Shown here: piece by piece, positions 15,688 through 46,627 of the stretch
Layout: each line of letters starts with the position of its first letter
How positions within the stretch are numbered: the stretch's first letter is position 1
NCBI RefSeq assembly: GCF_964204865.1
Contig: NC_135252.1
Span: 5,291,383-5,355,382 of the forward strand
DNA length: 64,000 nt
DNA from: Styela clava
Lineage: Eukaryota > Chordata > Ascidiacea > Stolidobranchia > Styelidae
Direction of reading: 5' to 3'
Position numbers and translations under genes: made by a program
Notes under the pieces: model-generated
What the model saw: the letters and a program-made list of their open reading frames with translations, nothing else
What the model was told of the DNA's origin: nothing
Database searches by the model: none

Positions 15688-16660
15688 CTTTATACAAGGC
15701 CAAAGAAGATTTAATTCGGACCGCTGACGGAGACGCAAAAGGTAAATATAGTAATACAATCAAAGGCATCTGAAATGAATATATTTCTTCTAGGACGTTA
15801 ATTAATTTAAAATTGGCTCACGCACCAAGTGACGAAAAGGACAATGAATTGAAACTTTCACTTTTTCTAGACATGTTATTACAACAACAAGCTAAAGTCA
15901 TTGTGGACGAAGGTGATTGTAATGTATGTTGGATAAGATAGTTCAGAAGAAACAAGGTTTGGCAAAATTTTTCTTTGCAAGGGCCGCATTCGGAAAATAT
16001 TTCTTGTAAAGGGTCGAATTTAATGATGGATGACATTGTTGAACTGGAGAGGAAAAAAACCTTAATATTATTGTAACAATTCATAATTTAGATATTTTGA
16101 ATAAAGTTTAAAAATAAATCGAAATTGTGTAGTTGTGAGAAAGAACTTCTCCACAAGCATGAGCCACACAGAATACTTTAGCGTGCCACATGCGACCCGT
16201 CGGCAGTATTTTCCCCATCCCCGATCTAAATAGTAAGGTTAGCAGCCTTGGAACAATTGATTTGCCAACAGATCTATGACACTAAAAGTTCAATCACAAT
16301 AAAATTAATGAAATAGAAGTAAATTTATTTCTGTAACGGGAATGATTTTTGCCTTAGTAAGGCCTCACACTCACTGACATTTCTTTTTCTGCTCACAGCA
16401 ATTTACGTGGCCATGAACATTCTCATGAAAGACCCTGCTGTGAAGCAGTCAGGTATGTTCACCTAAGATTTACATTAATTCAATGGATTGGATTTCAAAG
16501 ATTTGATTGAAGTCACCAATTTCACAAAAGTCCTTATCCTTATTATATATATGTATATATTAAATGATAATCTCTTTACATTTTTCAAATATTGGAGATG
16601 GCAAATGAATGGGCGTATTTTATTGTTTATTTATTTTCTATTAATAAAACTTACAAATAA
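15688..16660 (+). pseudogene. Truncated left copy (unit 0) of the array gene: exons 8b, 9, 10 only
   Basis: Exons 15688-15741, 15871-15912 and 16399-16452 correspond to exons 8b, 9 and 10 of the complete genes (peptides ALYKAKEDLIRTADGDAK, DMLLQQQAKVIVDE, AIYVAMNILMKDPAVKQS). The acceptor of the last exon, cag in the other units, is caa here (tttttcaaatattggagatg near 16587), so the normal terminal exon cannot be joined. Exons 1-8a are absent; homology starts at 15528. An AATAAA remains at 16643. Differences such as PAVKQS and ADGDAK set it apart from the inner units, and the Ser recurs in unit 6. Confidence 0.8.
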
Positions 16661-17620: not shown

Positions 17621-17653
17621 TGACGTCATAATATACATTTGAATTGTATAAAT
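17621..17653 (+). promoter_or_regulatory. CRE plus TATA box, gene 1
   Basis: A perfect palindromic CRE, TGACGTCA, lies at 17621-17628, with TATAAAT at 17647-17653, about 75-80 bp before the ATG. The start codon context is aaaATGG, with A at -3 and G at +4. The close CRE-TATA spacing resembles promoters driven by CREB/CREM; that reading is inference. Confidence 0.7.
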
Positions 17654-17727: not shown

Positions 17728-20700
17728 ATGGATAACAATTCTGAAACAAGAGGAGAGAATAAACGAGGCGGCAAGGTAGGTTGTTACTTCGAATAGGATA
17801 GGTGACAAATAGGCGTTACACCTGATCAAGTTCACTACTTTGGAACAATAGTTTTCAAACTTTCCAAGTGACCCAAATTTTGTAAAAAAAATGGAGTTCG
17901 TAAAATCTTGCGATCCAACGTTATGCTCAAATACTAAACGACATGCAGTGCTTTTATGATGGCAGAATTTATTTACTACTTAAAAAAATAATCTTTCTTA
18001 TTTAACAGTTTTCCTTATTATTTATTTCAATATTTATTATTGTTTGTCATGAGCGATTTGTTGAAACCGTCGCGTGGCTTTACTTGAGAAAAATAGATAT
18101 TTCACAGGTTTTAGGCTGCGAAACCTCAATACCAAGTACAAATTAAATATACTAGAAATGAAAACCAATAACTTTTGGGTTTTTGTTCAAAGAATTTTCC
18201 GGCAACCAAGATTTGAATCGCGACCCATAGGTTGGGAATCACTGCTTTAAAAGATCAAAATTGATGATTCATATTTTAATTTTGTATTGAAACAATATAA
18301 TTAATAATTTTAGACTTTTTAATTATATTACGCAATTAGAAATACTCATCAAGCTGGTGTAATTACCGAATATACAATATATATATATATATACGTGATT
18401 TTATTGAATAGCCTAATTAACTTTATTTATGTGAAATACATAAATTTAAACTACGTCCAACGCAGCTAGTACGCAAATAAATTATATTTATCCACATTAC
18501 AGAAATGGAGGAAATTCAAAGGCTTTGTGAAGATCTTCTTTTGTTTGGCATGCATTTTTCCGAAAGTAAGTTTGTTTTTACGAGGTATGAATAGGTACCT
18601 ATTGAGCTTTATTGATTTATAAACAAAGAAAACTACATTAAACATATAGCAATGTTAATTGCCTTCACGTAAAACTAATGTTCTCTAATTGAATATATAT
18701 ACATTCACTTAGAAATCTAAAACAAGAAGACGCGGAGATGAATCAGTTGGTAAGAAAATTACTGCTAGTATTTAGAAGTTATATTATCGTCAATCAATAT
18801 TACAAAACTTGGAAAATGGACGTAGTATTTTATTAGAAAATGAATAACCCAAGCATTCATTTGTTTTGGAAATGTGTTTGTTAATTCCCAAGTATTATAT
18901 ATATATATATTTTTGGCAGGGGTAAACAATATTATTATAAATAAATATATGTACAATCACTCAAATATCAATTTATGAAACAATCAGAGTTAATAATTAC
19001 AAATATTTGTGTTGTCTTTCAATATATATAAATATAAAAGTTAATATTTTTTATTCGTTTGTATGTGTGATATGGAAGTATATGGCGATTTTAACAATTT
19101 AGGTTTTTGTGCCATGCAATTTTTTCGGCATTACTTTTTTAATTTTATTCAACTACAGATTGTGCAACCTTGACTGAGGAACATTTCCGTGAAAACGTCG
19201 AAAAAGAGATCGCAAAATGTGAGTGTGAAGTATAATTAAATGGTTTCTAATAATCGTCGTGTTGACAACCCAAAATATCAAAATAGAATATTTCAAACAA
19301 GTGCCGTAAAGATGTAATGATAACCTGATTGTTTAAAAAATGAGACATTCCTATTTCTACCGTGATCTCACGTATGATTGTCGGTTAGTATGTGGAGTGA
19401 ATCGCGTAGAAATTATATTTTTTTCTTTAAAAACTCAATGTTTACGCCCAAGCTTTAGGTGTAGGCTCAGAGAGGACATAAATGAATGAAATCATTTCGC
19501 ACAAAAATCTATTCTACTTCTCTTCAATTAAAAGCGAAGAATATACGTCGTAACAATGTTTATGTATCCTGTGGTAATTGTTTAAAATGAATAAAAAAAT
19601 GTTTATTTTATAACCAGGTACGTTGAAGACTGTTGTGGTGGATCCAAAGATTGAGGATGAGAAATCAGTTCACAGCATTGGTAATGATAATACATTATAC
19701 GAAATATATGGTATTATGTTTAATTCAGGCACTTTTACATGTAGTAACCATAAATGAATATGATACTTACGAAAAATGACATTAAAAAAATATTGCACAT
19801 GTTTCGAATTTTGCTATATTAATTACAGTTATGCTCATATTTAACTAAATTTATTAATTAAAATACCGTACTATAACAAATATTTCTAACTCGATTGCTC
19901 AAGAAAATATGTGTTTAACCTTCGTCATAACGGTCACTCAGTCAGTAACAAAATACGAAGGAATTGATGAAAGCAAGTGTCTATAAATATTGAAACTGTG
20001 TTTTCTGTATTTTAGAATCAGTTGCGAAGCCACCAGCAGTTCCAGTATCAAAAATGCTCCAGGGAGGAGGTTTGATAATAACATTTTTAACGAAATAGAA
20101 AATAATTGTAAAACGAAAAACTTGAGCAGCTCATCTTAGATTCTCATCATTATATAAAAATCCACCAATGTTAGTAAATGTCGATTTTGTTGATTGGTTT
20201 TTGGGTCTAATACGCTTTATTTCGACAAGATTGTTACAAATTTTTCTGATACATTCAAAAATTAATTTCAGGTGATTTTCTTGTGGACCTTGAAGCCCAG
20301 AATTTAGTACAAGCTGGTAAGTTTTCAAATCGATATGCACATTCTGTTTTTCATTATATTATATATTGCAATGTTGAATGTTAGTTTCTCACTTAGCGGC
20401 TCAAGAATTTGCAACGAGCAAGATGTTGGAAACGTATAATCTGCAGTATTTAACTAACAAGAAATTAATGTTAAGAAATTAATTAAGTGTTAACGGGTTG
20501 TACCAAATGCAACATTAAGACATGTTTGTGATTTATAAAAACGGCACAAGTTGAGGTGAAATATCGAGAAAAGGCTTGGAATAGCAACTTTTTCATTGCC
20601 CCAAAATCAATTTTGCAAAACGATCCTTAGGTCCATTTCTGTTGAATGATTTAGTGCCAAAAATTGGGACAACTATTTTTTACAATCACTTTTGCATTCA

Positions 20701-21619
20701 TAGCTTTATACAAGGCCAAAGAAGATTTAATTCGGACCGCTGACGGAGACGAAAAAGGTAAATATATCAATACAATCAAAGACACCTGAAATGAATATAT
20801 ATATTTTTAGGTCGTCAATTAATTTACACACCAAGCGACGAAAAGGCCAACTGATTCAAACTTTTACTTTTTTAGACGTGATACTACAGCAACAAGCCAA
20901 AGTCATTGTGGACGAAGGTGATTGTATTGTATGTCAGATATAATAGTTCAGAATTCCAAGTCCCAAGGTTGGGCAAAGTATTTCTTTGCAAAGGCCGTAT
21001 TCGGAAAATATTCCTTGCAAAGGGTCGAATTTAATAATGGATGACACTGTTGAACTGCAGAGGAAAAAAACCTTAATATTATTGTAACAATTCATAGATA
21101 TTTTGAGTAAAGTTTAAAAATAAATCGAAATTGTGTAGTTGCGAGAAAAAACGTTCTCCAAAAGCATGAGCCACACAGAATATTTTAGTGTTCAAATGCG
21201 ACCCGTCGGCATATTTTAACCATCCCCGACCTAAGTAGTAAGGTTAGCAGCTTTGGTACTTCTACACGACTCAATTGATTTACCAACAGATCTAAGTCAC
21301 TAAAAGTTCAAAAACAATAAAATTGATATAATAGAAGTAAATTTATTTTAGTAACGGGAATGATTTTTGTCTTAGCAAGGCCTTACACTCACTGACATTT
21401 TTTTTTCTGCTCACAGCAATTTACGTGGCCATGAACATTCTCATGAAAGACCCTGTTGTGAAGCAGTTAGGTATGTTCACTTAAGATTTACATTAATTCA
21501 ATGAATTTGATTTAAAAGATTTGACTGAAGTCGCCATATCCCTAAAAGTCATTATCCTCATTATATTAAAAGATATTCAATCCCTTTATATTTTTTCAGA
21601 TATTGGAGATGGCAAATGA
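17728..21619 (+). CDS. AKAP-like small anchoring protein, array gene 1
   Basis: Exons: 17728-17775, 18503-18565, 18713-18749, 19159-19218, 19618-19680, 20016-20069, 20272-20316, then either terminal exon 8a (20397-20482, stop) or 8b-11 (20704-20757, 20876-20917, 21417-21470, 21600-21619, stop); AATAAA at 21654. Exons 1-3 join in phase 0, all later ones in phase 1. The long form is about 179 aa, the short about 151. Layout: MDNNSETRGENKRGGK; exon 2 basic/hydrophobic with two Cys (FKGFVKIFFCLACIFPK); exon 3 basic (KSKTRRRGDESV); exons 4-6 charged, then Pro-rich (AKPPAVPVSKM); exons 7/8b give AQNLVQAALYKA; exons 9/10 give AKVIVDEAIYVA. Both 12-mers fit the published RII-anchoring consensus, and the second resembles the designed peptide AKAP-IS (core AKQIVDNAIQQA). 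Inferred role: a membrane-linked PKA anchor comparable to AKAP7-alpha in size. No named homologue is recognised. Unit-specific: exon 2 reads KWRKF where other units have RNF. Confidence 0.75.
17846..18244. mobile_element. hAT-like MITE in intron 1 of the array gene
   Basis: The left end caatagttttcaaactttcc and right end aacctatgggttgggaatcactg-type terminus (18222-18244) form a decayed hAT-style inverted repeat. Flanks ctttggaa and ctttaaaa match at six of eight positions. The same insertion is present in intron 1 of every complete unit (for example 22857-23257 and from 27807), so it predates amplification. A short minus-strand ORF (23050-23241 in unit 2) inside it recurs for that reason and is not a gene. 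Confidence 0.6.
20964..21232. mobile_element. Possible hAT-like MITE in intron 9 of the array gene
   Basis: The left end aaggttgggcaaag with ggccgtattcgg nearby and the right end acccgtcggcatattttaac catccccgacc look like facing termini of a hAT-type element (G/T-rich ggttgggcaaa and ggggatggttaaaa when inverted). It is present in all units, including truncated unit 0 (about 15950-16230). The target-site duplication is unclear. Confidence 0.4.
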
Positions 21620-22739: not shown

Positions 22740-25700
22740 ATGGATAACAATTCTGAAACAAGAGGAGAGAATAAACGAGGCGGCAAGGTAGGTTGTTACT
22801 CGAATAGGATAGGTGACAAATAGGCGTTACACCTGATCAAGTTCACTACTTTGGAACAATAGTTTCCAAACTTCCTTCAAGTGACCCAAATTTTGTAAAA
22901 AAAATGGAGTTCGTAAAATCTCGCGATCCAACGTTATGCACAAATGCTAAACGACATGCAGTGCTTTTATGATGGCAGAATTTATTTACTAATTAAAAAA
23001 ATAATCTTTCTTATTTAACAGTTTTCCTTATTATTTATTTCAATATTAATTATTGTTTGTCATGAGCGATTTGTTGAAACCGTCGCGTGGCTTTACTTGA
23101 GAAAAATAGATATTTCACAGGTTTTAGGCTGCGAAACCTCAATACCAAGTACAAATTAAATATACTAGAAATGAAAACCAATAACTTTTGGGTTTTTGTT
23201 CGAAGAATTTTCAGGCAACCAAGATTTGAATCGCGACCCATAGGTTGGGAATCACTGCTTTAAAAGATCAAAATTGATGATTCATATCTTAATTTTGTAT
23301 TGAAACAATATAAATAATAATTTTAGACTTTTTAATTATATTACGCAATTAGAAATACTCATCAAGCTGGTGTAATTACCGAATATACAATATATATATA
23401 TATACGTGATTTTATTGAATAGCCTAATTAACTTTATTTATGTGAAATACCTAAATTTAAACTACGTCCAACGCAGCTAGTACGCAAATAAATTATATTT
23501 ATCCACATTACAGAAATGGAGGAATTTCAAAGGCTTTGTGAAGATCTTCTTTTGTTTGGCATGCATTTTTCCGAAAGTAAGTTTGTTTTTACGAGGTATG
23601 AATAGGTACCTATTGAGCTTTATTGATTTATAAACAAAGAAAACTACATTAAACATATAGCAATGTTAATTGCCTTCACGTAAGACTAATGTTCTCTAAT
23701 TGAATATATATACATTCACTTAGAAATCTAAAACAAGAAGACGCGGAGATGAATCAGTTGGTAAGAAAATTACTGCTAGTATTTAGAAGTTATATTATCG
23801 TCAATCAATATTACAAAACTTGGAAAATGGACGTAGTATTTTATTAGAAAATGAAGAACCCAAGCATTCATTTGTTTTGGAAATGTGTTTGTTAATTCCC
23901 AGGTATTATATATATATATTTTTTTTGCAGGGGTAAACAATATTATTATAAATAAATATATGTACAATCACTCAAATATCAATTTAAGAAACAATCAGAG
24001 TTAATAATTACAAATATTTGTGTTGTCTTTCAATATATATAAATATAAAAGTTAATATTTTTTATTCGTTTGTATGTGTGATATGGAAGTATATGGCGAT
24101 TTTAACAATTTAGGTTTTTGTGCCATGCAATTTTTTCGGCATTACTTTTTTAATTTTATTTAACTACAGATTGTGCAACCTTGACTGAGGAACATTTCCG
24201 TGAAAACGTCGAAAAAGAGATCGCAAAATGTGAGTGTGAAGTATAATTAAATGGTTTCTAAAAAGCGTCGTGTTGACAACCCAACATATCAAAATAGAAT
24301 ATTTCAAACAAGTGCCGTAAAGATGTAATGATAACCTAATTGTTTGAAAAATGAGATATTCCTATTTCTACCGTGATCTCACGTATGATTGTCGGTTAGT
24401 ATGTGGAGTGAATCGCGTAGAAATTATATTTTTTTTCTTTAAAAACCTCAACGTTTACGCCCAAGCTTTAGGTGTAGGCTCAGAGAGGACATAAATGAAT
24501 GAAATCATTTCGCACAAAAATCTGTTCTACTTCTCTTCAATTAAAAGCAAAGAATATACGTCGTAACAATGTTTATGTATCCTGTGGTAATTGTTTAAAA
24601 TGAAAAAAAAAATGTTTATTATATAACCAGGTACGTTGAAGAGTGTTGTGGTGGATCCAAAGATTGAGGATGAGAAATCAGTTCACAGCATTGGTAATGA
24701 TAATACATTATACGAAGTATATGTTGTTGAGTTTAATTCAGGCACTTTTACATGTAGTAACCATAAATGAATATGATACTTAACGAAAAATGACATTAAA
24801 AAAAATATTGCCCATGTTTCGAATTTTGTTATAATAATTACAGTTATGCTCATTTAACTAAATTTATTATTTAAAATACCGTAATATGACAATTATTTCT
24901 AAATCGATTGCTCAAGAAAATAGGTTTTTAATATAAATATTGAAACTGTGTTTTCTGTATTTTAGAATCAGTTGCGAAGCCACCAGCAGGCCCAGTATCA
25001 AAAATGCTCCAGGGAGGAGGTTTGATAATAATATTTTTGACAAAATATAAAATAATCGTGAAACGGAAAATTTGAGCAGTTCATCTTAGATTCTCATCAT
25101 TACAATAAAAATCCACCAATGTTAGTAAATGTCGATTTTCTGGATAGGTTTTTGGCTCCTTGACGCTTGATTTCGATAAGATTGTTATAAATTTTTCTGA
25201 TACATTCAAAAATTATTTTCAGGTGATTTTCTTGTGGACCTTGAAGCCCAGAATTTAGTACAAGCTGGTAAGTTTTTGAATCTCAATATGCACATTCTGT
25301 TTTCCAATAATTCTTATTGCAATGTTGAATGTTAGTTTCTCACTTAGCGGCTCAAGAATTTGCAACGAGCAAGATGTTGGAAACGTATAATCTGCAGTAT
25401 TTAACTAACAAGAAATTAATGTTAAGAAATTAATTAAGTGTTAACGGGTTGTACCAAATGCAACATTAAGACATGTTTGTGATTTATAAAAACAGCACAA
25501 GTTGAGGTGAAATATCGAGAAAAGGCTTGGAATAGCAACTTTTTCATTACCCCAAAATCAATTTTGCAAAACGATCCTTAGGTCCATTTCTGTTGAATGA
25601 TTTAGTGCCAAAAATTGGGAAAACTATTTTTTACAATCACTTTTGCATTCATAGCCCTATACAAGGCCAAAGAAGATTTAATTCGGACCGCTGACGGAGA

Positions 25701-26572
25701 CGAAAAAGGTAAATATATTAATACAATCAAAGACACCTGAAATGAATATATATATTTTTAAGTCGTCAATTAATTTACACACCAAGCGACGAAAAGGCCA
25801 ACTGATTCAAACTTTTACTTTTTTAGACGTGATACTACAGCAACAAGCCAAAGTCATTGTGGACGAAGGTGATTATATTGTATGTCAGATATAATAGTTC
25901 AGAATTCCAAGTCCCAGGGTTGGGCAAAGTTTTTCTTTGCAAAGGCCGTATTCGGAAAATATTTCTTGCAAATGGTCGAATTTCATAATGGATGACACCG
26001 TTGAACTGCAGAGGAAAAAAAACCTTAATATTATTGTAACACTTCATAGATATTTTGAGTAAAGTTTGAAAATAAATCGAAATTGTGTAGTTGTGAGAAA
26101 AAACGTTCTCCAAAAGCATGAGCCACACAGAATATTTTAGTGTTCCACATGCGACCCGTCGGCATATTTTAACCATCCCCGACCTAAGTAGTAAGGTTAG
26201 CAGCTTTAGTACTTCTACACGACTCAATTGATTTACCAACAGATCTATGTCACTAAAAGTTCAAACACAATAAAATTGATATAATAGAAGTAAATTTATT
26301 TTAGTAACGGGAATGATTTTTGTCTTAGTAAGGCCTTACACTCACTGACATTTCTTTTTCTGCTCACAGCAATTTACGTGGCCATGAACATTCTAATGAA
26401 AGACCCTGTTGTGAAGCAGTTAGGTATGTTCACTTCAGATTTACATTAATTCAATGGATTTGATTTAAAAGATTTGACTGAAGTCGCCAATTCCCTAAAA
26501 GTCATTATCCTCATTATATTAAAAGATATTCAATCCCTTTATATTTTTTCAGATATTGGAGATGGCAAATGA
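22740..26572 (+). CDS. AKAP-like small anchoring protein, array gene 2
   Basis: Exons: 22740-22787, 23514-23576, 23724-23760, 24180-24239, 24631-24693, 24966-25019, 25223-25267, alternative terminal 8a 25348-25433, or 8b-11 25655-25708, 25827-25868, 26370-26423, 26553-26572; AATAAA at 26607. All frames are open and all splice borders kept. Differences from gene 1: KWRNF in exon 2, TLKSVV for TLKTVV in exon 5, PPAGPVS for PPAVPVS in exon 6. The intron before exon 6 lacks about 60 bp (the cataacggtcactcagtcag segment), a deletion shared with gene 4. Both predicted anchoring helices are unchanged. Confidence 0.75.
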
Positions 26573-27689: not shown

Positions 27690-30600
27690 ATGGATAACAA
27701 TTCTGAAACAAGAGAAAGGAATAAACGAGGTGGCAAGGTAGGTTGTTACTCGAATAGGATAGGTGACAAATAGGCGTTACACCTGATCAAGTTCACTACT
27801 TTGGAACAATAGTTTCCAAACTTTCTTCAAGAAACCCAAATTTTGTAAAAAAAAATGGAGTTCGTAAAATCTCGCGATCCAACGTTATGCTCAAATACTA
27901 AACGACATGCAGTGCTTTTATGATGGCAGAATTTATTTACTACTTAAAAAAATAATCTTTCTTATTTAACAGTTTTCCTTATTATTTATTTCAATATTAA
28001 TTATTGTTTGTCATGAGCGATTTGTTGAAACCGTCGCGTGGCTTTACTTGAGAAAAATAGATATTTCACAGGTTTTAGGCTGCAAAACTTCAATACCAAG
28101 TACAAATTAAATATACTAGAAATGAAAACCAATAACTTTTGGGTTTTTGTTCGAAGAATTTTCAGGCAACCAAGATTTGAATCGCGACCCATAGGTTGGG
28201 AATCACTGCTTTAGAAGATCAAAATTGATGATTCATATTTTAATTTTGTATTGAAACAATATAATTAATAATTTTAGACTTTTTAATTATATTACGCAAT
28301 TAGAAATACTCATCAAGCTGGTGTAATTACCGAATATACAATATATATATATATACGTGATTTTATTGAATAGCCTAATTAACTTTATTTATGTGAAATA
28401 CATAAATTTAAACTACGTCCAACGCAGCTAGTACGCAAATAAATTATATTTATCCCCATTACAGAAATGGAGGAATTTCGAAGGCTTTGTGAAGATCTTC
28501 TTTTGTTTGGCATGCATTTTTCCGAAAGTAAGTTTGTTTTTACGAGGTATGAATAGGTACCTATTGAGCTTTATTGATTTATAAACAAAGAAAACTACAT
28601 TAAACATATAGCAATGTTAATTGCCTTCACGTAAGACTAATGTTCTCTAATTGAATATATATACATTCACTTAGAAATCTAAAACAAGAAGACGCGGAGA
28701 TGAATCAGTTGGTAAGAAAATTACTGCTAGTATTTAGAAGTTATATTATCGTCAATCAATATTACAAAACTTGGAAAATGGACGTAGTATTTTATTAGAA
28801 AATGAATAACCCAAGCATTCATTTGTTTTGGAAATGTGTTTGTTAATTCCCAAGTATTATATATATATATATTTTTGGCAGGGGTAAACAATATTATTAT
28901 AAATAAATATATGTACAATCACTCAAATATCAATTTATGAAACAATCAGAGTTAATAATTACAAATATTTGTGTTGTCTTTCAATATATATAAATATAAA
29001 AGTTAATATTTTTTATTCGTTTGTATGTGTGATATGGAAGTATATGGCGATTTTAACAATTTAGGTTTTTGTGCCATGCAATTTTTTCGGCATTACTTTT
29101 TTAATTTTATTTAACTACAGATTGTGCAACCTTGACTGAGGAACATTTCCGTGAAAACGTCGAAAAAGAGATCGCAAAATGTGAGTGTGAAGTATAATTA
29201 AATGGTTTCTAATAATCGTCGTGTTGACAACCCAAAATATCAAAATAGAATATTTCAAACAAGTGCCGTAAAGATGTAATGATAACCTAATTGTTTAAAA
29301 AATGAGACATTCCTATTTCTACCGTGATCTCACGTATGATTGTCGGTTAGTATGTGGAGTGAATCGCGTAGAAATTATATTTTTTTCTTTAAAAACTCAA
29401 TGTTTACGCCCAAGCTTTAGGTGTAGGCTCAGAGAGGACATAAATGAATGAAGTCATTTCGCACAAAAATCTATTCTACTGCTCTTCAATTAAAAGCAAA
29501 GAATATACGTCGTAACAATGTTTATGTATCCTGTGGTAATTGTTTAAAATGAAAAAAAAATGTTTATTATATAACCAGGTACGTTGAAGACTGTTGTGGT
29601 GGATCCAAAGATTGAGGATGAGAAATCAGTTCACAGCATTGGTAATGATAATACATTATACGAAATATATGGTATTATGTTTAATTCAGGCACTTTTACA
29701 TGTAGTAACCATAAATGAATATGATACTTACGAAAAATGACATTAAAAAAATATTGCACATGTTTCGAATTTTGCTATATTAATTACAGTTATGCTCATA
29801 TTTAACTAAATTTATTAATTAAAATACCGTACTATAAGAAATATTTCTAACTCGATTGCTCAAGAAAATATGTGTTTAACCTTCGTCATAACGGTCACTC
29901 AGTCAGTAACAAAATACGAAGGAATTGATGAAAGCAAGTGTCTATAAATATTGAAACTGTGTTTTCTGTATTTTAGAATCAGTTGCGAAGCCACCAGCAG
30001 GTCCAGTATCAAAAATGCTCCAGGGAGGAGGTTTGATAATAACATTTTTAACGAAATAGAAAATAATTGTAAAACGAAAAACTTGAGCAGCTCATCTTAG
30101 ATTCTCATCATTACATAAAAATCCACCAATGTTAGTAAATCTCGATTTGGTTGATGGGTTTTTGTGTCTAATACGCTTTATTTCGACAAGATTGTTACAA
30201 ATTTTTCTGATACATTCAAAAATTAATTTCAGGTGATTTTCTTGTGGACCTTGAAGCCCAGAATTTAGTACAAGCTGGTAAGTTTTCAAATCGATATGCA
30301 CATTCTGTTTTTCATTATATTATATATTGCAATGTTGAATGTTAGTTTCTCACTTAGCGGCTCAAGAATTTGCAACGAGCAAGATGTTGGAAACGTATAA
30401 TCTGCAGTATTTAACTAACAAGAAATTAATGTTAGGAAATTAATTAAGTGTTAACGGGTTGTACCAAATGCAACATTAAGACATGTTTGTGATTTATAAA
30501 AACAGCACAAGTTGAGGTGAAATATCGAGAAAAGGCTTGGAATAGCAACTTTTTCATTGCCCCAAAATCAATTTTGCAAAACGATCCTTATGTCCATTTC

Positions 30601-31580
30601 TGTTGAATGATTTAGTGCCAAAAATTGGGACAACTATTTTTTACAATCACTTTTGCATTCATAGCTTTATACAAGGCCAAAGAAGATTTAATTCGGACCG
30701 CTGACGGAGACGAAAAAGGTAAATATATTAATACAATCAAAGACACCTGAAATGAATATATATATTTTTAGGTCGTCAATTAATTTACACACCAAGCGAC
30801 GAAAAGGCCAACTGATTCAAACTTTTACTTTTTTAGACGTGATACTACAGCAACAAGCCAAAGTCATTGTGGACGAAGGTGATTGTATTGTATGTCAGAT
30901 ATAATAGTTCAGAATTCCAAGTCCCAAGGTTGGGCAAAGTTTTTCTTTGCAAAGGCCGTATTCGGAAAATATTCCTTGCAAAGGGTCGAATTTAATAATG
31001 GATGACACTGTTGAACTGCAGAGGAAAAAAACCTTAATATTATTGTAACAATTCATAGATATTTTGAGTAAAGTTTAAAAATAAATCGAAATTGTGTAGT
31101 TGCGAGAAAAAACGTTCTCCAAAAGCATGAGCCACACAGAATATTTTAGTGTTCAAATGCGACCCGTCGGCATATTTTAACCATCCCCGACCTAAGTAGT
31201 AAGGTTAGCAGCTTTGGTACTTCTACACGACTCAATTGATTTACCAACAGATCTATGTCACTAAAAGTTCAAAAACAATAAAATTGATATAATAGAAGTA
31301 AATTTATTTTAGTAACGGGAATGATTTTTGTCTTAGCAAGGCCTTACACTCACTGACATTTTTTTTACTGCTCACAGCAATTTACGTGGCCATGAACATT
31401 CTCATGAAAGACCCTGTTGTGAAGCAGTTAGGTATGTTCACTTAAGATTTACATTAATTCAATGAATTTGATTTAAAAGATTTGACTGAAGTCGCCATAT
31501 CCCTAAAAGTCATTATCCTCATTATATTAAAAGATATTCAATCCCTTTATATTTTTTCAGATATTGGAGATGGCGAATGA
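27690..31580 (+). CDS. AKAP-like small anchoring protein, array gene 3
   Basis: Exons: 27690-27737, 28465-28527, 28675-28711, 29121-29180, 29579-29641, 29977-30030, 30233-30277, alternative terminal 8a 30358-30443, or 8b-11 30665-30718, 30837-30878, 31378-31431, 31561-31580; AATAAA at 31615. Intact. It carries the most changes at the N terminus: exon 1 reads ETRERNKRGGK and exon 2 KWRNFEGF, which lowers the positive charge before the hydrophobic stretch. Exon 8a ends MLGN rather than MLRN, and exon 11 ends DIGDGE. The helix 12-mers are identical to gene 1. Confidence 0.75.
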
Positions 31581-32702: not shown

Positions 32703-35700
32703 ATGGATAACAATTCTGAAACAAGAGGAGAGAATAAACGAGGCGGCAAGGTAGGTTGTTACTCGAATAGGATAGGTGACAAATAGGCGTTACACCTGAT
32801 CAAGTTCACTACTTTGGAACAATAGTTTTCAAACTTTCCAAGTGACCCAAATTTTGTAAAAAAAATGGAGTTCGTAAAATCTCGCGATCCAACGTTATGC
32901 TCAAATACTAAACGACATGCAGTGCTTTTATGATGGCAGAATTTATTTACTACTTAAAAAAATAATCTTTCTTATTTAACAGTTTTCCTTATTATTTATT
33001 TCAATATTAATTATTGTTTGTCATGAGCGATTTGTTGAAACCGTCGCGTGGCTTTACTTGAGAAAAATAGATATTTCACAGGTTTTAGGCTGCGAAACCT
33101 CAATACCAAGTACAAATTAAATATACTAGAAATGAAAACCAATAACTTTTGGGTTTTTGTTCGAAGAATTTTCAGGCAACCAAGATTTGAATCGCGACCC
33201 ATAGGTTGGGAATCACTGCTTTAAAAGATCAAAATTGATGATTCATATCTTAATTTTGTATTGAAACAATATAAATAATAATTTTAGACTTTTTAATTAT
33301 ATTACGCAATTAGAAATACTCATCAAGCTGGTGTAATTACCGAATATACAATATATATATATATACGTGATTTTATTGAATAGCCTAATTAACTTTATTT
33401 ATGTGAAATACATAAATTTAAACTACGTCCAACGCAGCTAGTACGCAAATAAATTATATTTATCCACATTACAGGAATGGAGGAATTTCAAAGGCTTTGT
33501 GAAGATCTTCTTTTGTTTGGCATGCATTTTTCCGAAAGTAAGTTTGTTTTTACGAGGTATGAATAGGTACCTATTGAGCTTTATTGATTTATAAACAAAG
33601 AAAACTACATTAAACATATAGCAATGTTAATTGCCTTCACGTAAGACTGATGTTCTCTAATTGAATATATATACATTCACTTAGAAATCTAAAACAAGAA
33701 GACGCGGAGATGAATCAGTTGGTAAGAAAATTACTGCTAGTATTTAGAAGTTATATTATCGTCAATCAATATTACAAAACTTGGAAAATGGACGTAGTAT
33801 TTTATTAGAAAATGAATAAGCCAAGCATTCATTTGTTTTGGAAATGTGTTTGTTAATTCCCAGGTATTATATATATTTTTGGCAGGGGTAAACAATATTA
33901 TTATAAATAAATATATGTACAATCACTCAAATATCAATTTAAGAAACAATCACAGTTAATAATTACAAATATTTGTGTTGTCTTTCAATATATATAAATA
34001 TAAAAGTTAATATTTTTTATTCGTTTGTATGTGTGATATGAAAGTATATGGCGATTTTAACAATTTAGGTTTTTGTGCCATGCAATTTTTTCGGCATTAC
34101 TTTTTTAATTTTATTTAACTACAGATTGTGCAACCTTGACTGAGGAACATTTCCGTGAAAACGTCGAAAAAGAGATCGCAAAATGTGAGTGTGAAGTATA
34201 ATCAAATGGTTTCTAAAAAGCGTCGTGTTGACAACCCAACATATCAAAATAGAATATTTCAAACAAGTGCCGTAAAGAAGTAATGATAACCTAATTGTTT
34301 GAAAAATGAGATATTCCTATTTCTACCGTGATCTCACGTATGATTGTCGGTTAGTATGTGGAGTGAATCGCGTAGAAATTATATTTTTTTTCTTTAAAAA
34401 CCTCAATGTTTACGCCCAAGCTTTAGGTGTAGACTCAGAGATGACATAAATGAATGAAATCATTTTGCACAAAAATCTATTCTACTTCTCTTCAATTAAA
34501 AGCAAAGAATATACGTCGTAACAATGTTTATGTATCCTGTGATAATTGTTTAAAATGAAAAAAAAATGTTTATTTTATAACCAGGTACGTTGAAGACTGT
34601 TGTGGTGGATCCAAAGATTGAGGATGAGAAATCAGTTCACAGCATTGGTAATGATAATACATTATACAAAGTATATGTTGTTATGTTTAATTCAGGCACT
34701 TTTACATGTAGTAACCATAAATGAATATGATACTTACGAAAAATGACATTAAAAAAAATATTGCCCATGTTTCGAATTTTGTTATAATAATTAGTTACAG
34801 TTATGCTCATTTAACTAAATTTATTATTTAAAATACCGTAATATGACAATTATTTCTAAATCGATTGCTCAAGAAAATAGGTTTTTAATATAAATATTGA
34901 AACTGTGTTTTCTGTATTTTAGAATCAGTTGCGAAGCCACCAGCAGGCCCAGTATCAAAAATGCTCCAGGGAGGAGGTTTGATAATAATATTTTTGACAA
35001 AATATAAAATAATCGTGAAACGGAAAATTTGAGCAGTTCATCTTAGATTCTCATCATTACAATAAAAATCCACCAATGTTAGTAAATGTCGATTTTCTGG
35101 ATAGGTTTTTGGCTCCTTGACGCTTGATTTCGATAAGATTGTTATACATTTTTCTGATACATTCAAAAATTATTTTCAGGTGATTTTCTTGTGGACCTTG
35201 AAGCCCAGAATTTAGTACAAGCTGGTAAGTTTTTAAATCTCAATATGCACATTCTGTTTTCCAATAATTCTTATTGCAATGTTGAATGTTAGTTTCTCAC
35301 TTAGCGGCTCAAGAATTTGCAACGAGCAAGATGTTGGAAACGTATAATCTGCAGTATTTAACTAACAAGAAATTAATTTCTTAACATTAATTTCTTGTTA
35401 GTTAAATACTGCAGTGTTAACGGGTTGTACCAAATGCAACATTAAGACATGTTTGTGATTTATAAAAACAGCACAAGTTGAGGTGAAATATCGAGAAAAG
35501 GCTTGGAATAGCAACTTTTTCATTACCCCAAAATCAATTTTGCAAAACGATCCTTAGGTCCATTTCTGTTGAATGATTTAGTGCCAAAAATTGGGACAAC
35601 TATTTTTTACAATCACTTTTGCATTCATAGCTTTATACAAGGCCAAAGAAGATTTAATTCGGACCGCTGACGGAGACGAAAAAGGTAAATATATTAATAC

Positions 35701-36547
35701 AATCAAAGACACCTGAAATGAATATATATATTTTTAAGTCGTCAATTAATTTACACACCAAGCGACGAAAAGGCCAACTGATTCAAACTTTTACTTTTTT
35801 AGACGTGATACTACAGCAACAAGCCAAAGTCATTGTGGACGAAGGTGATTATATTGTATGTCAGATATAATAGTTCAGAATTCCAAGTCCCAGGGTTGGG
35901 CAAAGTTTTTCTTTGCAAAGGCTGTATTCGGAAAATATTTCTTGCAAATGGTCGAATTTCATAATGGATGACACCGTTGAACTGCAGAGGAAAAAAAACC
36001 TTAATATTATTGTAACACTTCATAGATATTTTGAGTAAAGTTTAAAAATAAATCGAAATTGTGTAGTTGTGAGAAAAAACGTTCTCCAAAAGCATGAGCC
36101 ACACAGAATATTTTAGTGTTCCACATGCGACCCGTCGGCATATTTTAACCATCCCCGACCTAAGTAGTAAGGTTAGCAGCTTTAGTACTTCTACACGACT
36201 CAATTGATTTACCAACAGATCTATGTCACTAAAAGTTCAAACACAATAAAATTGATATAATAGAAGTAAATTTATTTTAGTAACGGGAATGATTTTTGTC
36301 TTAGTAAGGCCTTACACTCACTGACATTTCTTTTTCTGCTCACAGCAATTTACGTGGCCATGAACATTCTAATGAAAGACCCTGTTGTGAAGCAGTTAGG
36401 TATGTTCACTTCAGATTTACATTAATTCAATGGATTTGATTTAAAAGATTTGACTGAAGTCGCCAATTCCCTAAAAGTCATTATCCTCATTATATTAAAA
36501 GATATCCAATCCCTTTATATTTTTCAGATATTGGAGATGGCAAATGA
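32703..36547 (+). CDS. AKAP-like small anchoring protein, array gene 4
   Basis: Exons: 32703-32750, 33475-33537, 33685-33721, 34125-34184, 34585-34647, 34923-34976, 35180-35224, alternative terminal 8a 35305-35384, or 8b-11 35631-35684, 35803-35844, 36346-36399, 36528-36547; AATAAA at 36582. Exon 2 starts EWRNF (GAA for AAA). Exon 8a ends early with NKKLIS because a fold-back rearrangement (35349-35414) replaced its last codons and the following sequence. The long form is unaffected. Shares the shortened intron 5 with gene 2. Confidence 0.75.
35349..35414. repeat. Perfect 29-bp inverted repeat created by fold-back rearrangement
   Basis: Left arm 35349-35377 begins ctgcagtatttaactaac. Right arm 35386-35414 is its exact reverse complement (ending gttagttaaatactgcag). 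The 8-nt spacer is ttcttaac. Only this unit has it. The other units read straight through (aattaatgttaagaaattaa), and the inserted segment equals the reverse complement of their sequence, as expected from one template switch at the aaattaat motif. Confidence 0.9.
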
Positions 36548-37668: not shown

Positions 37669-40600
37669 ATGGATAACAATTCTGAAACAAGAGGAGAGAA
37701 TAAACGAGGCGGCAAGGTAGGTTGTTACTTCGAATAGGATAGGTGACAAATAGGCGTTACACCTGATCAAGTTCACTACTTTGGAACAATAGTTTTCAAA
37801 CTTTCCAAGTGACCAAAATTTTGTAAAAAAAATGGAGTTCGTAAAATCTCGCGATCCAACGTTATGTTCAAATACTAAACGACATGCAGTGCTTTTATGA
37901 TGGCAGAATTTATTTACTACTTAAAAAAATAATCTTTCTTATTTAACAGTTTTCCTTATTATTTATTTCAATATTTATTATTGTTTGTCATGAGCGATTT
38001 GTTGAAACCGTCGCGTGGCTTTACTTGAGAAAAATAGATATTTCACAGGTTTTAGGCTGCGAAACCTCAATACCAAGTACAAATTAAATATACTAGAAAT
38101 GAAAACCAATAACTTTTGGGTTTTTGTTCGAAGAATTTTCAGGCAACCAAGATTTGAATCGCGACCCATAGGTTGGGAATCACTGCTTTAAAAGATCAAA
38201 ATTGATGATTCATATTTTAATTTTGTATTGAAACAATATAAATAATAATTTTAGACTTTTTAATTATATTACGCAATTAGAAATACTCATCAAGCTGGTG
38301 TAATTACCGAATATACAATATATATATATATACGTGATTTTATTGAATAGCCTAATTAACTTTATTTATGTGAAATACCTAAATTTAAACTACGTCCAAC
38401 GCAGCTAGTACGCAAATAAATTATATTTACCCACATTACAGAAATGGAGGAATTTCAAAGGCTTTGTGAAGATCTTCTTTTGTTTGGCATGCATTTTTCC
38501 GAATGTAAGTTTGTTTTTACGAGGTATGAATAGGTACCTATTGAGCTTTATTGATTTATAAACAAAGAAAACTACATTAAACATATAGCAATGTTAATTG
38601 CCTTCAAGTAAGACTGATGTTCTCTAATTGAATATATATACATTCACTTAGAAATCTAAAACAAGAAGACGCGGAGATGAATCAGTTGGTAAGAAAATTA
38701 CTGCTAGTATTTAGAAGTTATATTATCGTCAATCAATGTTACAAAACTTGGAAAATGGACGTAGTATTTTATTAGAAAATGAAGAACCCAAGCATTCATT
38801 TGTTTTGGAAATGTGTTTGTTAATTCCCAGGTATTATATATATTTTTGGCAGGGGTAAACAATATTATTATAAATAAATATATGTACAATCACTCAAATA
38901 TCAATTTAAGAAACAATCAGAGTTAATAATTACAAATATTTGTGTTGTCTTTCAATATATATAAATATAAAAGTTGATATTTTTTATTCGTTTGTATGTG
39001 TGATATGAAAGTATATGGCGATTTTAACAATTTAGGTTTTTGTGCCATGCAATTTTTTCGGCATCACTTTTTTAATTTTATTTAACCACAGATTGTGCAA
39101 CCTTGACTGAGGAACATTTCCGTGAAAACGTCGAAAAAGAGATCGCAAAATGTGAGTGTGAAGTATAATTAAATGGTTTCTAAAAAGCGTCGTGTTGACA
39201 ACCCAACATATCAAAATAGAATATTTCAAACAAGTGCCGTAAAGATGTAACGATAACCTAATTGTTTGAAAAATGAGATATTCCTATTTCTACCGTGATC
39301 TCACGTATGATTGTCGGTTAGTATGTGGAGTGAATCGCGTAGGAATTATATTTTTATCTTTAATTAAAAACTCAATGTTCACGCCCAAGCTTTAGGTGTA
39401 GACTTAGAGATGACATAAGTGTATAAAGAAAAGTCATTTCGCAATAATATCTATTCTACTTCCCTTCAATTAAAAGCGAAGAATTTACGTCGTAACAATG
39501 TTTATGTATCCTGTGGGAATTGTTTAAAATGAAAAAAAAAAAAATGTTCATTATATAACCAGGTACGTTGAAGAGTGTTGTGGTGGATCCAAAGATTGAG
39601 GATGAGAAATTAGTTCACAGCATTGGTAATGATAATACATTATACGAAGTATATGTTGTTATGTTTAATTCAGGCACTTTTACATGTTGTAATCATAAAT
39701 CAATATGATACTTAATATGATGACATTAAAAAAATATTGCCCATGTTTCGAATTTTGCTATATTAATTACAGTTATGCTCATATTTAACTAAATTTATTA
39801 ATTAAAATACCGTACAATAACAAATATTTCTAACTCGATTGCTCAAGAAAACATGTATTTAACCTTCGTCATAACGGTCACTCAGTCAGTAACAAAATAC
39901 GAAGGAATTGATGAAAGCAAGTGTCTATAAATATTGAAACTGTGTTTTCTGTATTTTAGAATCAGTTGCGAAGCCACCAGCAGTTCCAGTATCAAAAATG
40001 CTCCAGGGAGGAGGTTTGATAATAACATTTTTAACGAAATAGAAAATAATTGTAAAACGAAAAACTTGAGCAGCTCATCTTAGATTCTCATCATTATATA
40101 AAAATCCACCAATGTTAGTAAATGTCGATTTTGTTGATTGGTTTTTGGGTCTAATACGCTTTATTTCGACAAGATTGTTACAAATTTTTCTGATACATTC
40201 AAAAATTAATTTCAGGTGATTTTCTTGTGGACCTTGAAGCCCAGAATTTAGTACAAGCTGGTAAGTTTTCAAATCGATATGCACATTCTGTTTTTCATTA
40301 TATTATATATTGCAATGTTGAATGTTAGTTTCTCACTTAGCGGCTCAAGAATTTGCAACGAGCAAGATGTTGGAAACGTATAATCTGCAGTATTTAACTA
40401 ACAAGAAATTAATGTTAAGAAATTAATTAAGTGTTAACGGGTTGTACCAAATGCAACATTAAGACATGTTTGTGATTTATAAAAACGGCACAAGTTGAGG
40501 TGAAATATCGAGAAAAGGCTTGGAATAGCAACTTTTTCATTGCCCCAAAATCAATTTTGCAAAACGATCCTTAGGTCCATTTCTGTTGAATGATTTAGTG

Positions 40601-41563
40601 CCAAAAATTGGGACAACTATTTTTTACAATCACTTTTGCATTCATAGCTTTATACAAGGCCAAAGAAGATTTAATTCGGACCGCTGACGGAGACGAAAAA
40701 GGTAAATATATTAATACAATCAAAGACACCTGAAATGAATATATATATTTTTAAGTCGTCAATTAATTTACACACCAAGCGACGAAAAGGCCAACTGATT
40801 CAAACTTTTACTTTTTTAGACGTGATACTACAGCAACAAGCCAAAGTCATTGTGGACGAAGGTGATTATATTGTATGTCAGATATAATAGTTCAGAATTC
40901 CAAGTCCCAGGGTTGGGCAAAGTTTTTCTTTGCAAAGGCTGTATTCGGAAAATATTCCTTGCAAAGGGTCGAATTTAATAATGGATGACACTGTTGAACT
41001 GCAGAGGAAAAAAACCTTAATATTATTGTAACAATTCATAGATATTTTGAGTAAAGTTTAAAAATAAATCGAAATTGTGTAGTTGCGAGAAAAAACGTTC
41101 TCCAAAAGCATGAGCCACACAGAATATTTTAGTGTTCAAATGCGACCCGTCGGCATATTTTAACCATCCCCGACCTAAGTAGTAAGGTTAGCAGCTTTGG
41201 TACTTCTACACGACTCAATTGATTTACCAACAGATCTATGTCACTAAAAGTTCAAAAACAATAAAATTGATATAATAGAAGTAAATTTATTTTAGTAACG
41301 GGAATGATTTTTGTCTTAGCAAGGCCTTACACTCACTGACATTTTTTTTTCTGCTCACAGCAATTTACGTGGCCATGAACATTCTCATGAAAGACCCTGT
41401 TGTGAAGCAGTTAGGTATGTTCACTTAAGATTTACATTAATTCAATGAATTTGATTTAAAAGATTTGACTGAAGTCGCCATATCCCTAAAAGTCATTATC
41501 CTCATTATATTAAAAGATATTCAATCCCTTTATATTTTTTCAGATATTGGAGATGGCAAATGA
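37669..41563 (+). CDS. AKAP-like small anchoring protein, array gene 5
   Basis: Exons: 37669-37716, 38442-38504, 38652-38688, 39092-39151, 39563-39625, 39960-40013, 40216-40260, alternative terminal 8a 40341-40426, or 8b-11 40648-40701, 40820-40861, 41361-41414, 41544-41563; AATAAA at 41598. Intact. Exon 2 ends IFPN instead of IFPK, exon 5 reads TLKSVV and EKLVHS (Ser to Leu), and exon 6 has PPAVPVS as in gene 1. The 5' half shares variants with genes 2 and 4, while from intron 5 onward it follows gene 1, which points to a recombinant unit. Confidence 0.75.
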
Positions 41564-42683: not shown

Positions 42684-45600
42684 ATGGATAACAATTCTGA
42701 AACAAGAGGAGAGAATAAACGAGGCGGCAAGGTAGGTTGTTACTCGAATAGGATAGGTGACAAATAGGCGTTACACCTGATCAAGTTCACTACTTTGGAA
42801 CAATAGTTTCCAAACTTTCTTCAAGTGACCCAAATTTTGTAAAAAAAATGGAGTTCGTAAAATCTCGCGATCCAACGTTATGTTCAAATACTAAACGACA
42901 TGCAGTGCTTTTATGATGGCAGAATTTATTTACTACTTAAAAAAATAATCTTTCTTATTTAACAGTTTTCCTTATTATTTATTTCAATATTAATTATTGT
43001 TTGTCATGAGCGATTTGTTGAAACCGTGGCGTGGCTTTACTTGAGAAAAATAGATATTTCACAGGTTTTAGGCTGCAAAACTTCAATACCAAGTACAAAT
43101 TAAATATACTAGAAATGAAAACCAATAACTTTTGGGTTTTTGTTCAAAGAATTTTCCGGCAACCAAGATTTGAATCGCGACCCATAGGTTGGGAATCACT
43201 GCTTTAAAAGATCAAAATTGATGATTCATATTTTAATTTTGTATTGAAACAATATAAATAATAATTTTAGACTTTTTAATTATATTACGCAATTAGAAAT
43301 ACTCATCAAGCTGGTGTAATTACCGAATATACAATATATATATTTATACGTGATTTTATTGAATAGCCTAATTAACTTTATTTATGTGAAATACATAAAT
43401 TTAAACTACGTCCAACGCAGCTAGTACGCAAATAAATTATATTTATCCACATTACAGAAATGGAGGAATTTCAAAGGCTTTGTGAAGATCTTCTTTTGTT
43501 TGGCATGCATTTTTCCGAAAGTAAGTTTGTTTTTACGAGGTATGAATAGGTACCTATTGAGCTTTATTGATTTATAAACAAAGAAAACTACATTAAACAT
43601 ATAGCAATGTTAATTGCCTTCAAGTAAGACTGATGTTCTCTAATTGAATATATATACATTCACTTAGAAATCTAAAACAAGAAGACGCGGAGATGAATCA
43701 GTTGGTAAGAAAATTACTGCTAGTATTTAGAAGTTATATTATCGTCAATCAATATTACAAAACTTGGAAAATGGACGTAGTATTTTATTAGAAAATGAAT
43801 AACCCAAGCATTCATTTGTTTTGGAAATGTGTTTGTTAATTCCCAAGTATTATATATATATATATTTTTGGCAGGGGTAAACAATATTATTATAAATAAA
43901 TATATGTACAATCACTCAAATATCAATTTATGAAACAATCAGAGTTAATAATTACAAATATTTGTGTTGTTTTTCAATATATATAAATATAAAAGTTAAT
44001 ATTTTTTATTCGTTTGTATGTGTGATATGAAAGTATATGGCGATTTTAACAATTTAGGTTTTTGTGCCATGCAATTTTTTCGGCATTACTTTTTTAATTT
44101 TATTTAACTACAGATTGTGCAACCTTGACTGAGGAACATTTCCGTGAAAACGTCGAAAAAGAGATCGCAAAATGTGAGTGTGAAGTATAATTAAATGGTT
44201 TCTAAAAAGCGTCGTGTTGACAACCCAAAATATCAAAATAGAATATTTCGAACAAGTGCCGTAAAGATGTAATGATAACCTAATTGTTTGAAAAAAGGGG
44301 ACATTCCTATTTCTACCGTGATCTCACGTATGATTGTCGGTTAGTATGTGGAGTGAATCGCGTAGAAATTATATTTTTTTTCTTTAAAAACCTCAATGTT
44401 TACGCCCAAGCTTTAGGTGTAGGCTCAGAGATGACATAAATGAATGAAGTCATTTCGCACAAAAATCTATTCTACTTCTCTTCAATTAAAAGCAAAGAAT
44501 ATACGTCGTAACAATGTTTATGTATCCTGTGGTAATTGTTTAAAATGAAAAAAAAAATGTTTATTATATAACCAGGTACGTTGAAGACTGTTGTGGTGGA
44601 TCCAAAGATTGAGGATGAGAAATCAGTTCACAGCATTGGTAATGATAATACATTATACGAAATATATGTTCTTATGTTTAATTCAGGCACTTTTACATGT
44701 AGTAACCATAAATGAATATGATACTTACGAAAAATGACATTAAAAAAAATATTGCCCATGTTTCGAATTTTGTTATATTAATTACAGTTATGCTCATTTA
44801 ACTAAATTTATTATTTAAAATACCGTAATATAACAATTATTTTTAACTCGATTGCTCAAGAAAGAATGTTTTTAACCTTTGTCATGACGGTCACTCGGTC
44901 AGTAACAAACAAAATACGAAAGACTTTCTAATAGAAAATATTGAAATTAATGAAAGCAAGTGTCTATAAATATTGAAACTGTGTTTTCTGTATATTAGAA
45001 TCAGTTGCGAAGCCACCAGCAGGTCCAGTATCAAAAATGCTCCAGGGAGGAGGTTTGATAATAACATTTTTAACGAAATAGAAAATAATTGTAAAACGGA
45101 AAACTTGAGCAGTTCATCTTAGATTCTCATCATTACATAAAAATCCACCAATGTTAGTAATGTCGATTTTGTTGATTGGTTTTTGGGTCTAATACGCTTT
45201 ATTTCGACAAGATTGTTACAAATTTTTCTGATACATTCTAAAATTAATTTCAGGTGATTTTCTTGTGGACCTTGAAGCCCAGAATTTAGTACAAGCTGGT
45301 AAGTTTTCAAATCAATATGCACATTCTGTTTTTCATTATATTATATATTGCAATGTTGAATGTTAGTTTCTCACTTAGCGGCTCAAGAATTTGCAACGAG
45401 CAAGATGTTGGAAACGTATAATCTGCAGTATTTATCTAACAAGAAAGTAATGCTAAGAAATTAAATAAAGGTAACGGGCTGTACCAAATGCAACATTAAG
45501 ACATGTTTGTGAATTATAAAACCAGCACAAGTTGAAGTGAAATATCAAGAAAAGGCTTGGAATAGCGACTTTTCATTACCCCTATATCAATTTTGCAAAA

Positions 45601-46627
45601 CGATTCTTAGGTCCATTTCTGTTTAATGATTTAGTGCCAAAAATTGGGACAACTATTTTTTACAATCACTTTTGCATTCATAGCTTTATACAAGGCAAAA
45701 GAAGATTTAACTCGGACCGCTGACGGCGACGGAAAAGGTAAATATATTAATACAATCAAAGACATCTGAAATGAATATATATTTTTTAAGACGTTAATTA
45801 ATTTAAAACTGTCTTACACACCAAGTGACGAAAAGGCCAACTACTTCGAACTATTACTTTTTTTAGACGTGATACTACAGCAACAAGCCAAAGTCATTGT
45901 GGACGAAGGTGATTATATTGCATGTTAGATATAGTAGTTCAGAATTCCAAGTCACAAGGTTGGGCAAAGTTTTTCTTAGCAAGGGCCGCATTCGGAAAAT
46001 ATTTCTTGCAAAGGGTCGAATTTAATAATGGATGACATTGTTGAACTGGAGAGGAAAAAAACCGAATATTATTGTAACAATTCATAGTTTAGATAATTTG
46101 AATAGTGTTTGAAAATAAATCGAAATTGTGTAGTTGTGAGAAAGAACGTTCTCCAAAAGCATGAGCCACACAGAATACTTTAGCGTGCCACATGCGACCC
46201 GTCGGCAGTATTTTCCCCATCCCCAACCTGAGTAGTGAGGTTAGCAGCCTTGGTACTTCTTCACGAAACAATTGATTTGCCAACAGATCTATGTCACTAA
46301 AAGTTCAAACACAATAAAATTGATAAAATAGAAGTAAATATATTTTTGTAACGAGAATAATTCTTGCCTTAGTAAGTCCTACACTCACTGACATTTCTTT
46401 TTCTGCTCACAGCAATTTACGTGGCCATGAACATTCTCATGAAAGACCCTGTTGTGAAGCAGTCAGGTATGTTCACCTAAGATTTACATTAATTCAATGG
46501 ATCGGATTTCAAAAATTTGATTGAAGTCACCAATTTTCCAAAAGTCCTTATCCTTATTATATAATATATTAAATGATAATCCCTTTATATTTTTCAGATA
46601 TTGGAGATGACAGATGAATGGGCGTAC
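42684..46627 (+). CDS. AKAP-like small anchoring protein, array gene 6 (right-end copy)
   Basis: Exons: 42684-42731, 43458-43520, 43668-43704, 44114-44173, 44576-44638, 44999-45052, 45254-45298, alternative terminal 8a 45379-45464, or 8b-11 45684-45737, 45867-45908, 46413-46466, 46608-46627; AATAAA at 46652. The 5' half matches the inner units and the 3' block is diverged: exon 8a reads YLSNKKVMLRN and is followed at once by AATAAA (about 45463-45468), exon 8b has DLTRTADGDGK, exon 10 ends VKQS as in unit 0, and exon 11 ends DIGDDR. Helix residues are conserved despite the divergence (AQNLVQAALYKA and AKVIVDEAIYVA), which suggests constraint on them. Confidence 0.75.

Follow-up and report, generated by a model that had tools for sequence, protein, structure and literature searches.

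What does a tandem array of small, near-identical genes in Styela clava encode, and do two helices near the C-terminus of its product dock PKA, as an earlier note proposed? In the 64-kb stretch of DNA analyzed (hereafter, the window), the array comprises six intact tandem copies, in units of ~5 kb that span 17728-46617, and one truncated copy (Table 1). Unit 1 was modeled as 11 coding exons specifying a 179-residue protein, with an open spliced frame and AG/GT at each intron; introns lie in phase 0 after exons 1 and 2 and in phase 1 after every later exon. The truncated copy (unit 0), whose exon 11 acceptor is AA, not AG, is probably a relic. Identity between units was 95.3-98.8%, and the six copies differed from one another in 23 of 540 exon columns vs 256 of 3264 intron columns (counting intron columns without gaps). 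Since units 1, 3, and 5 are closer to each other, as are units 2 and 4 (window 17500-46830), these resemblances suggest that the array grew by duplication of 10-kb pairs. A stretch at ~21022-21140, within the exon 9/10 intron of unit 1, matches many sites on other chromosomes and is probably a dispersed repeat. Elsewhere in the window, a 54-base tandem repeat (4441-4960; 9.7 copies) is partly open as a repetitive peptide, and a TCP-1/cpn60 chaperonin exon (PF00118) lies on the minus strand at 53597-54007.

Table 1. Features of the array, in window coordinates.
Feature	Position	Strand	Basis or remark
Unit 0, 5'-truncated copy	15688..16608	+	matches only exons 8b, 9, 10, and an exon-11-like end
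Palindromic CRE	17621..17628	+	107 bases before the unit 1 ATG
Unit 1 gene	17728..21619	+	open spliced frame, AG/GT
Exons 2-3, KWxxFKxFV...FCLxCIFPKKSKTRRR, candidate membrane-targeting segment	18503..18749	+	conservation
Exon 7, helix 1 up to position 7	20272..20316	+	AG/GT, frame, diverged loci
"Exon 8a," probably no exon	20397..20433	+	37 nt, frame break
Exon 8b, remainder of helix 1	20704..20757	+	AG/GT, frame, diverged loci
Exon 9, helix 2 up to position 7	20876..20917	+	AG/GT, frame, diverged loci
Exon 10, remainder of helix 2	21417..21470	+	AG/GT, frame, diverged loci
Unit 2 gene	22740..26572	+	splice sites, frame
Unit 3 gene	27690..31580	+	splice sites, frame
Unit 4 gene	32703..36547	+	splice sites, frame
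Unit 5 gene	37669..41563	+	splice sites, frame; CRE with one mismatch
Unit 6 gene	42684..46617	+	splice sites, frame

Outside the window, the genome holds at least three further intact loci (C9, C19, and C5) and one relic (C18), copy numbers being lower bounds as genome searches score the best candidates only. The intact loci have 11 exons each, bordered by AG/GT, with open frames of 540, 555, and 522 bases, respectively. Matching by peptide found 11 exons in C9, 7 in C19, and 8 in C5 (true places only); exons first placed by eye, with splice sites and frame checked afterwards, include 1, 4, 5, and 6 of C19 and 4, 5, and 11 of C5. Since three diverged loci thus keep 11 exons, AG/GT borders, and an open frame, the gene model is supported. 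At the fourth locus (C18:16570500-16579500, minus strand), exons 1, 2, 5, 6, and 7 are unmatched and the exon 4 match contains a stop; exons 8b-10 are still readable, and the locus looks like a decayed relic copy. Over the whole gene, dN/dS in six pairs of loci was 0.27-0.47. Exon 1 gave 2.39, 2.76, and 1.20 in three pairs with C19, and the tail 1.39 for unit 1 vs C19, in each case from very few codons; exon 1, the middle (exons 3-6), and the tail are the more diverged parts of the gene. Tunicates are the animals known to carry a cellulose-synthase-type gene, and an exon of this type, pointing to a tunicate unless it is a contaminant, was seen at C9:16177457-16177855 (PF03552 above cut-off, PF13632 with the best score; TED and QxxRW motifs recognized by eye).

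The earlier note had read exons 7 and 8b as encoding one helix, AQNLVQAALYKA, and exons 9 and 10 as encoding another, AKVIVDEAIYVA (20272-21470). AG/GT borders and in-frame joins in the genomic sequence confirm this, the joined exons reading ...EAQNLVQA/ALYKAKEDL... in helix 1 and ...QQQAKVIVDE/AIYVAMNIL... in helix 2 (slash, exon join). Exon 8b is the right partner of exon 7, since the alternative, exon 8a, breaks the frame and has neither AG/GT nor a well-matched counterpart elsewhere: its best match in C9 and C19 is without an AG acceptor and has GC as donor, and it is poorly matched in C5 (20/37 bases) and C18 (19/37). The phase-1 intron, described as falling between positions 7 and 8, cuts codon 8 after its first base in both helices, so the description was nearly exact. 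Duplication of one exon pair is the probable origin of the two helices, a proposal with moderate support: their introns share codon and phase, and hhalign places the two profiles in register (P 0.0024, with a probability of only 12%), while similarity outside the anchor positions is modest (617 of 20000 shuffles were as good). Equal phase is not independent evidence here, because all introns after exon 3 are in phase 1.

On the strength of a 12-residue consensus, the earlier note had likened both helices to RII-anchoring ones. Taken alone, this loose pattern is weak evidence, since shuffled versions of the unit 1 protein contained it at least once in 1138 of 5000 trials (23%) and at least twice in 228 of 5000, and we dismissed it as proof. 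What stood is the fit of helix 2, LQQQAKVIVDEAIYVA, to a stricter RII consensus, LxxxAxxIVxxAIxxA (PMC3682517, in excerpt), at 7/7 positions in every one of the four loci except C19, which has M in place of L. Helix 1 has 4/7 exact consensus positions (5 in C5), and a conservative seven-position pattern is fitted by both helices in all four loci. Of 200000 shuffles, 7 contained the exact core A..IV..AI..A and 29 the conservative pattern at least once, with none containing the latter twice; for the complete 16-residue motif, residue composition predicts 1.6e-6 exact occurrences per protein. Because we picked the motif with the sequence already in view, these numbers are somewhat too favorable.

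The earlier note also proposed that, across copies, substitutions should avoid positions 1, 4, 5, 8, 9, and 12, and this was borne out in both helices among four diverged loci (unit 1, C9, C19, and C5). No anchor column varied (0/12) vs 7/12 of the other core columns (Fisher one-sided 0.0023), although these columns and substitutions do not count as independent events, because the four loci share ancestry. Among 924 choices of six positions, a single one did as well, namely 1, 4, 5, 8, 9, and 12. Over the 16-residue motif, 2/14 anchor columns varied (V/L and L/M) vs 11/18 others (p 0.0091). Sliding the register by 1 to 3 positions either way gave p > 0.4, and a shift of +4, approximately one helical turn, gave 0.098. 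Selective constraint on the docking positions, a mark by which A-kinase anchoring proteins (AKAPs) may be judged, was thus found (12/12 anchors invariant, others 5/12). Mean column identity was 88% in helix 1 vs 79% in helix 2. The helix cores were not among the four highest helical-moment windows reported for each of the four proteins.

Resemblance to known anchoring peptides was measured against sequences from Table 1 of PMC4526808 (in excerpt), as the number of shuffles out of 5000 that matched as well, in the order unit 1, C9, C19, C5. The likeness of helix 2 to AKAP-is, already remarked upon, held up, being closer than in most shuffles (23, 10, 122, and 0), and Super-AKAP-is gave 10, 12, 84, and 15. 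For the RII peptide Ht31 the counts were 241, 95, 34, and 13; for AKB-RII, 530, 95, 736, and 206; for the RI peptide RIAD, 238, 269, 917, and 424; and for AKB-RI, 3188, 1487, 1068, and 1142. Over six published peptides and four loci, 18 of the 24 best matches fell in helix 2, one in helix 1 (C19, Super-AKAP-is), and five elsewhere. AKAP-is, for which an RII affinity of 0.4 nM is given in the same excerpt (PMC4526808), and Super-AKAP-is are designed RII-binding peptides, and their core, AK.IVD.AI..A, equals helix 2 at 8/12 positions; they are synthetic and single-helix, whereas here a natural gene carries two. In unit 1, RIAD (238) matches as well as Ht31 (241) and better than AKB-RII (530). 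A preference for RII over RI is therefore only weakly supported, and we lean to RII because of the two AKAP-is peptides and the consensus. Together, the consensus, the likeness to AKAP-is, and the six anchors, which alone are substitution-free in both helices, support the proposal that these are AKAP-like anchoring helices, as far as sequence can indicate.

A Pfam search of the four proteins returned no AKAP domain, its sole matches being unrelated families at E ~0.05. PF10470 (AKAP7_RIRII_bdg) had no match in the four proteins, nor in the genome at E up to 10, in a search for which the only control matching was Methanocaldococcus, below cut-off, and which had no positive control genome; such models are also poor at picking up short helices. 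On this negative result we set aside kinship with AKAP7. Kinship with AKAP-110, a family that we take to include AKAP3/4/11 and SPHKAP, was likewise set aside as PF05716 (AKAP_110) had no match in the four proteins; the PF05716 genome search was uninformative, since no control matched either. Among matches to solved structures (chains of at least 20 residues), searched with the C-terminal half and with each helix profile, no AKAP appeared, and the best were unrelated (Phi92 gp146, 0.81; SYCP1, 0.23; p97, 0.47; Shank1, 0.41). When the D-AKAP2 helix served as query, the matches were the D-AKAP2 entry itself, a designed protein, and a short "A Kinase binding peptide"; since a true AKAP helix found so little, the structure search is weak for such helices.

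Two further features are conserved. In the N-terminal segment, 21 of 29 residues (16-44) are invariant across the four loci, comparable to helix 1 and its flank (108-131; 18/24), and in three of the four proteins the helical moment peaks in windows from residue 12 onward. The segment is basic and aromatic, with two cysteines adjoining basic residues, and by its composition and conservation it may serve as a palmitoylated tether to a membrane or, alternatively, as a nuclear signal. Upstream, a CRE lies at -99 to -107 from the ATG in 9/9 intact copies examined, exact in seven and with one mismatch in two (unit 5 and C5); the palindrome TGACGTCA occurs six times in the window, five times at this upstream position. 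Conservation is not confined to the CRE, because the stretch from it to the ATG is conserved too.

Candidate partners are encoded in the same genome, where at least seven RIIa domain matches were found, five above the Pfam cut-off (three prokaryotic controls matched, none above cut-off). The RIIa match on C18 presumably resembles PKA RI, and a cNMP-binding exon lies ~4.3 kb further on; that on C8 presumably resembles PKA RII, with no cNMP-binding match nearby at E 1e-6. The others we take to be SPA17-like (C4 and C1), CATIP (C17), ROPN1 (C10, below cut-off), and TPGS1 (C16, below cut-off). PKA and R2D2 partners thus both seem to be available, and availability does not tell them apart. With a probability of roughly 0.6, we infer that the product of the array is a small A-kinase anchoring protein with two docking sites, which may be bound to a membrane. 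Each C-terminal amphipathic helix would dock in the groove of one PKA regulatory-subunit dimer (RII over RI, weakly), and therefore one molecule could hold two holoenzymes. The basic, aromatic, two-cysteine N-terminus may fix the protein to the membrane, perhaps by S-palmitoylation and charge; the CRE near the start may let cAMP signaling raise expression of its own anchor; and the second docking site would stem from a duplicated exon pair whose intron interrupts the helix. The fuller picture, a cAMP-inducible, tandem-amplified two-site PKA anchor of tunicates, with a CRE feedback loop, cross-linked regulatory dimers, and clustered membrane kinase, we put forward as doubtful.

A narrower reading, which overlaps the preferred one, is that only helix 2 holds PKA and helix 1 is degenerate or differently specific. 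The disparity in exact consensus positions (7/7 vs 4/7) speaks for it, as does the concentration of best peptide matches in helix 2 (18/24, with one in helix 1), yet helix 1 is the more conserved of the two and its six anchors are invariant in four loci; such a single-site anchor is conceivable and, in our judgment, rather doubtful. Alternatively, the two segments might be generic amphipathic helices, such as a self-packing hairpin or coiled coil, whose AKAP likeness is convergent or due to chance. A hairpin core would likewise keep small and aliphatic residues, the loose consensus is frequent in shuffles, short-profile searches match unrelated proteins, and by helical moment the helix cores are unremarkable. 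Against this, chance would hardly produce all seven consensus residues of helix 2, and the positions that stay constant in both helices coincide exactly with the six used for docking, so that we regard generic helices as quite unlikely.

It is also conceivable, if unlikely, that the helices dock not PKA but ROPN1-like or SPA17-like R2D2 proteins in sperm tails or cilia, the product being a structural adaptor, not a kinase anchor. Amplified small genes are frequent in the male germ line, and RIIa exons that we take to be ROPN1-, SPA17-, and CATIP-like are present in the genome. R2D2 proteins do bind AKAP helices, with the SPA17-ROPN1L heterodimer binding AKAP18 at 82 nM and SPA17 alone at 9.6 uM (PMC8339350, in excerpt). 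However, PKA suits the exact RII consensus of helix 2 no less well, the conserved N-terminus with its basic residues and cysteines points to a membrane more than to an axoneme, and tunicate sperm are reported, in the excerpted text of PMC11276731, to be without a fibrous sheath.

A two-site A-kinase anchoring protein would have partial counterparts among known anchors. We take smAKAP to have one helix where the gene here has two. Like it, smAKAP is small, with a PKA-anchoring helix and membrane anchorage by an N-terminal lipid (PMC13025221, in excerpt), but by the same excerpt it is RI-specific and both myristoylated and palmitoylated, whereas here the consensus is of the RII type and only the C9 copy begins Met-Gly. 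In AKAP7 alpha/beta (AKAP15/18), the PKA-binding helix of the short forms is encoded at the 3' end, as here (PMC3508976, in excerpt); AKAP7 differs in the PF10470 domain, unmatched in the proteins and genome here, albeit in a search with no positive control genome. These short forms are membrane-targeted, and SPHKAP and AKAP11 are far larger proteins. According to the AKAP7 excerpt (PMC3508976), Ciona lacks the AKAP7 docking domain, whose earliest appearance is in lamprey. SPHKAP and AKAP11 can hold two PKA holoenzymes per molecule, as proposed here, but they serve type I PKA (PMC10460453, in excerpt), and their AKAP_110 domain has no match in the proteins here. Because two-holoenzyme AKAPs and a small membrane AKAP already exist, the gene is best filed as a new putative member of this known functional class. 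Among the literature titles surveyed, a partial coverage, none describes small size, two intron-split helices, tandem array, and CRE together.

Since AKAP helices are short and hard to recognize by homology, anchors outside the vertebrates are little known. A gene family that pairs two helices with a conserved CRE, and whose natural copies have diverged to differing extents, would allow tests of how anchors originate, of whether a double site clusters PKA, and of whether anchoring is under the control of cAMP itself.
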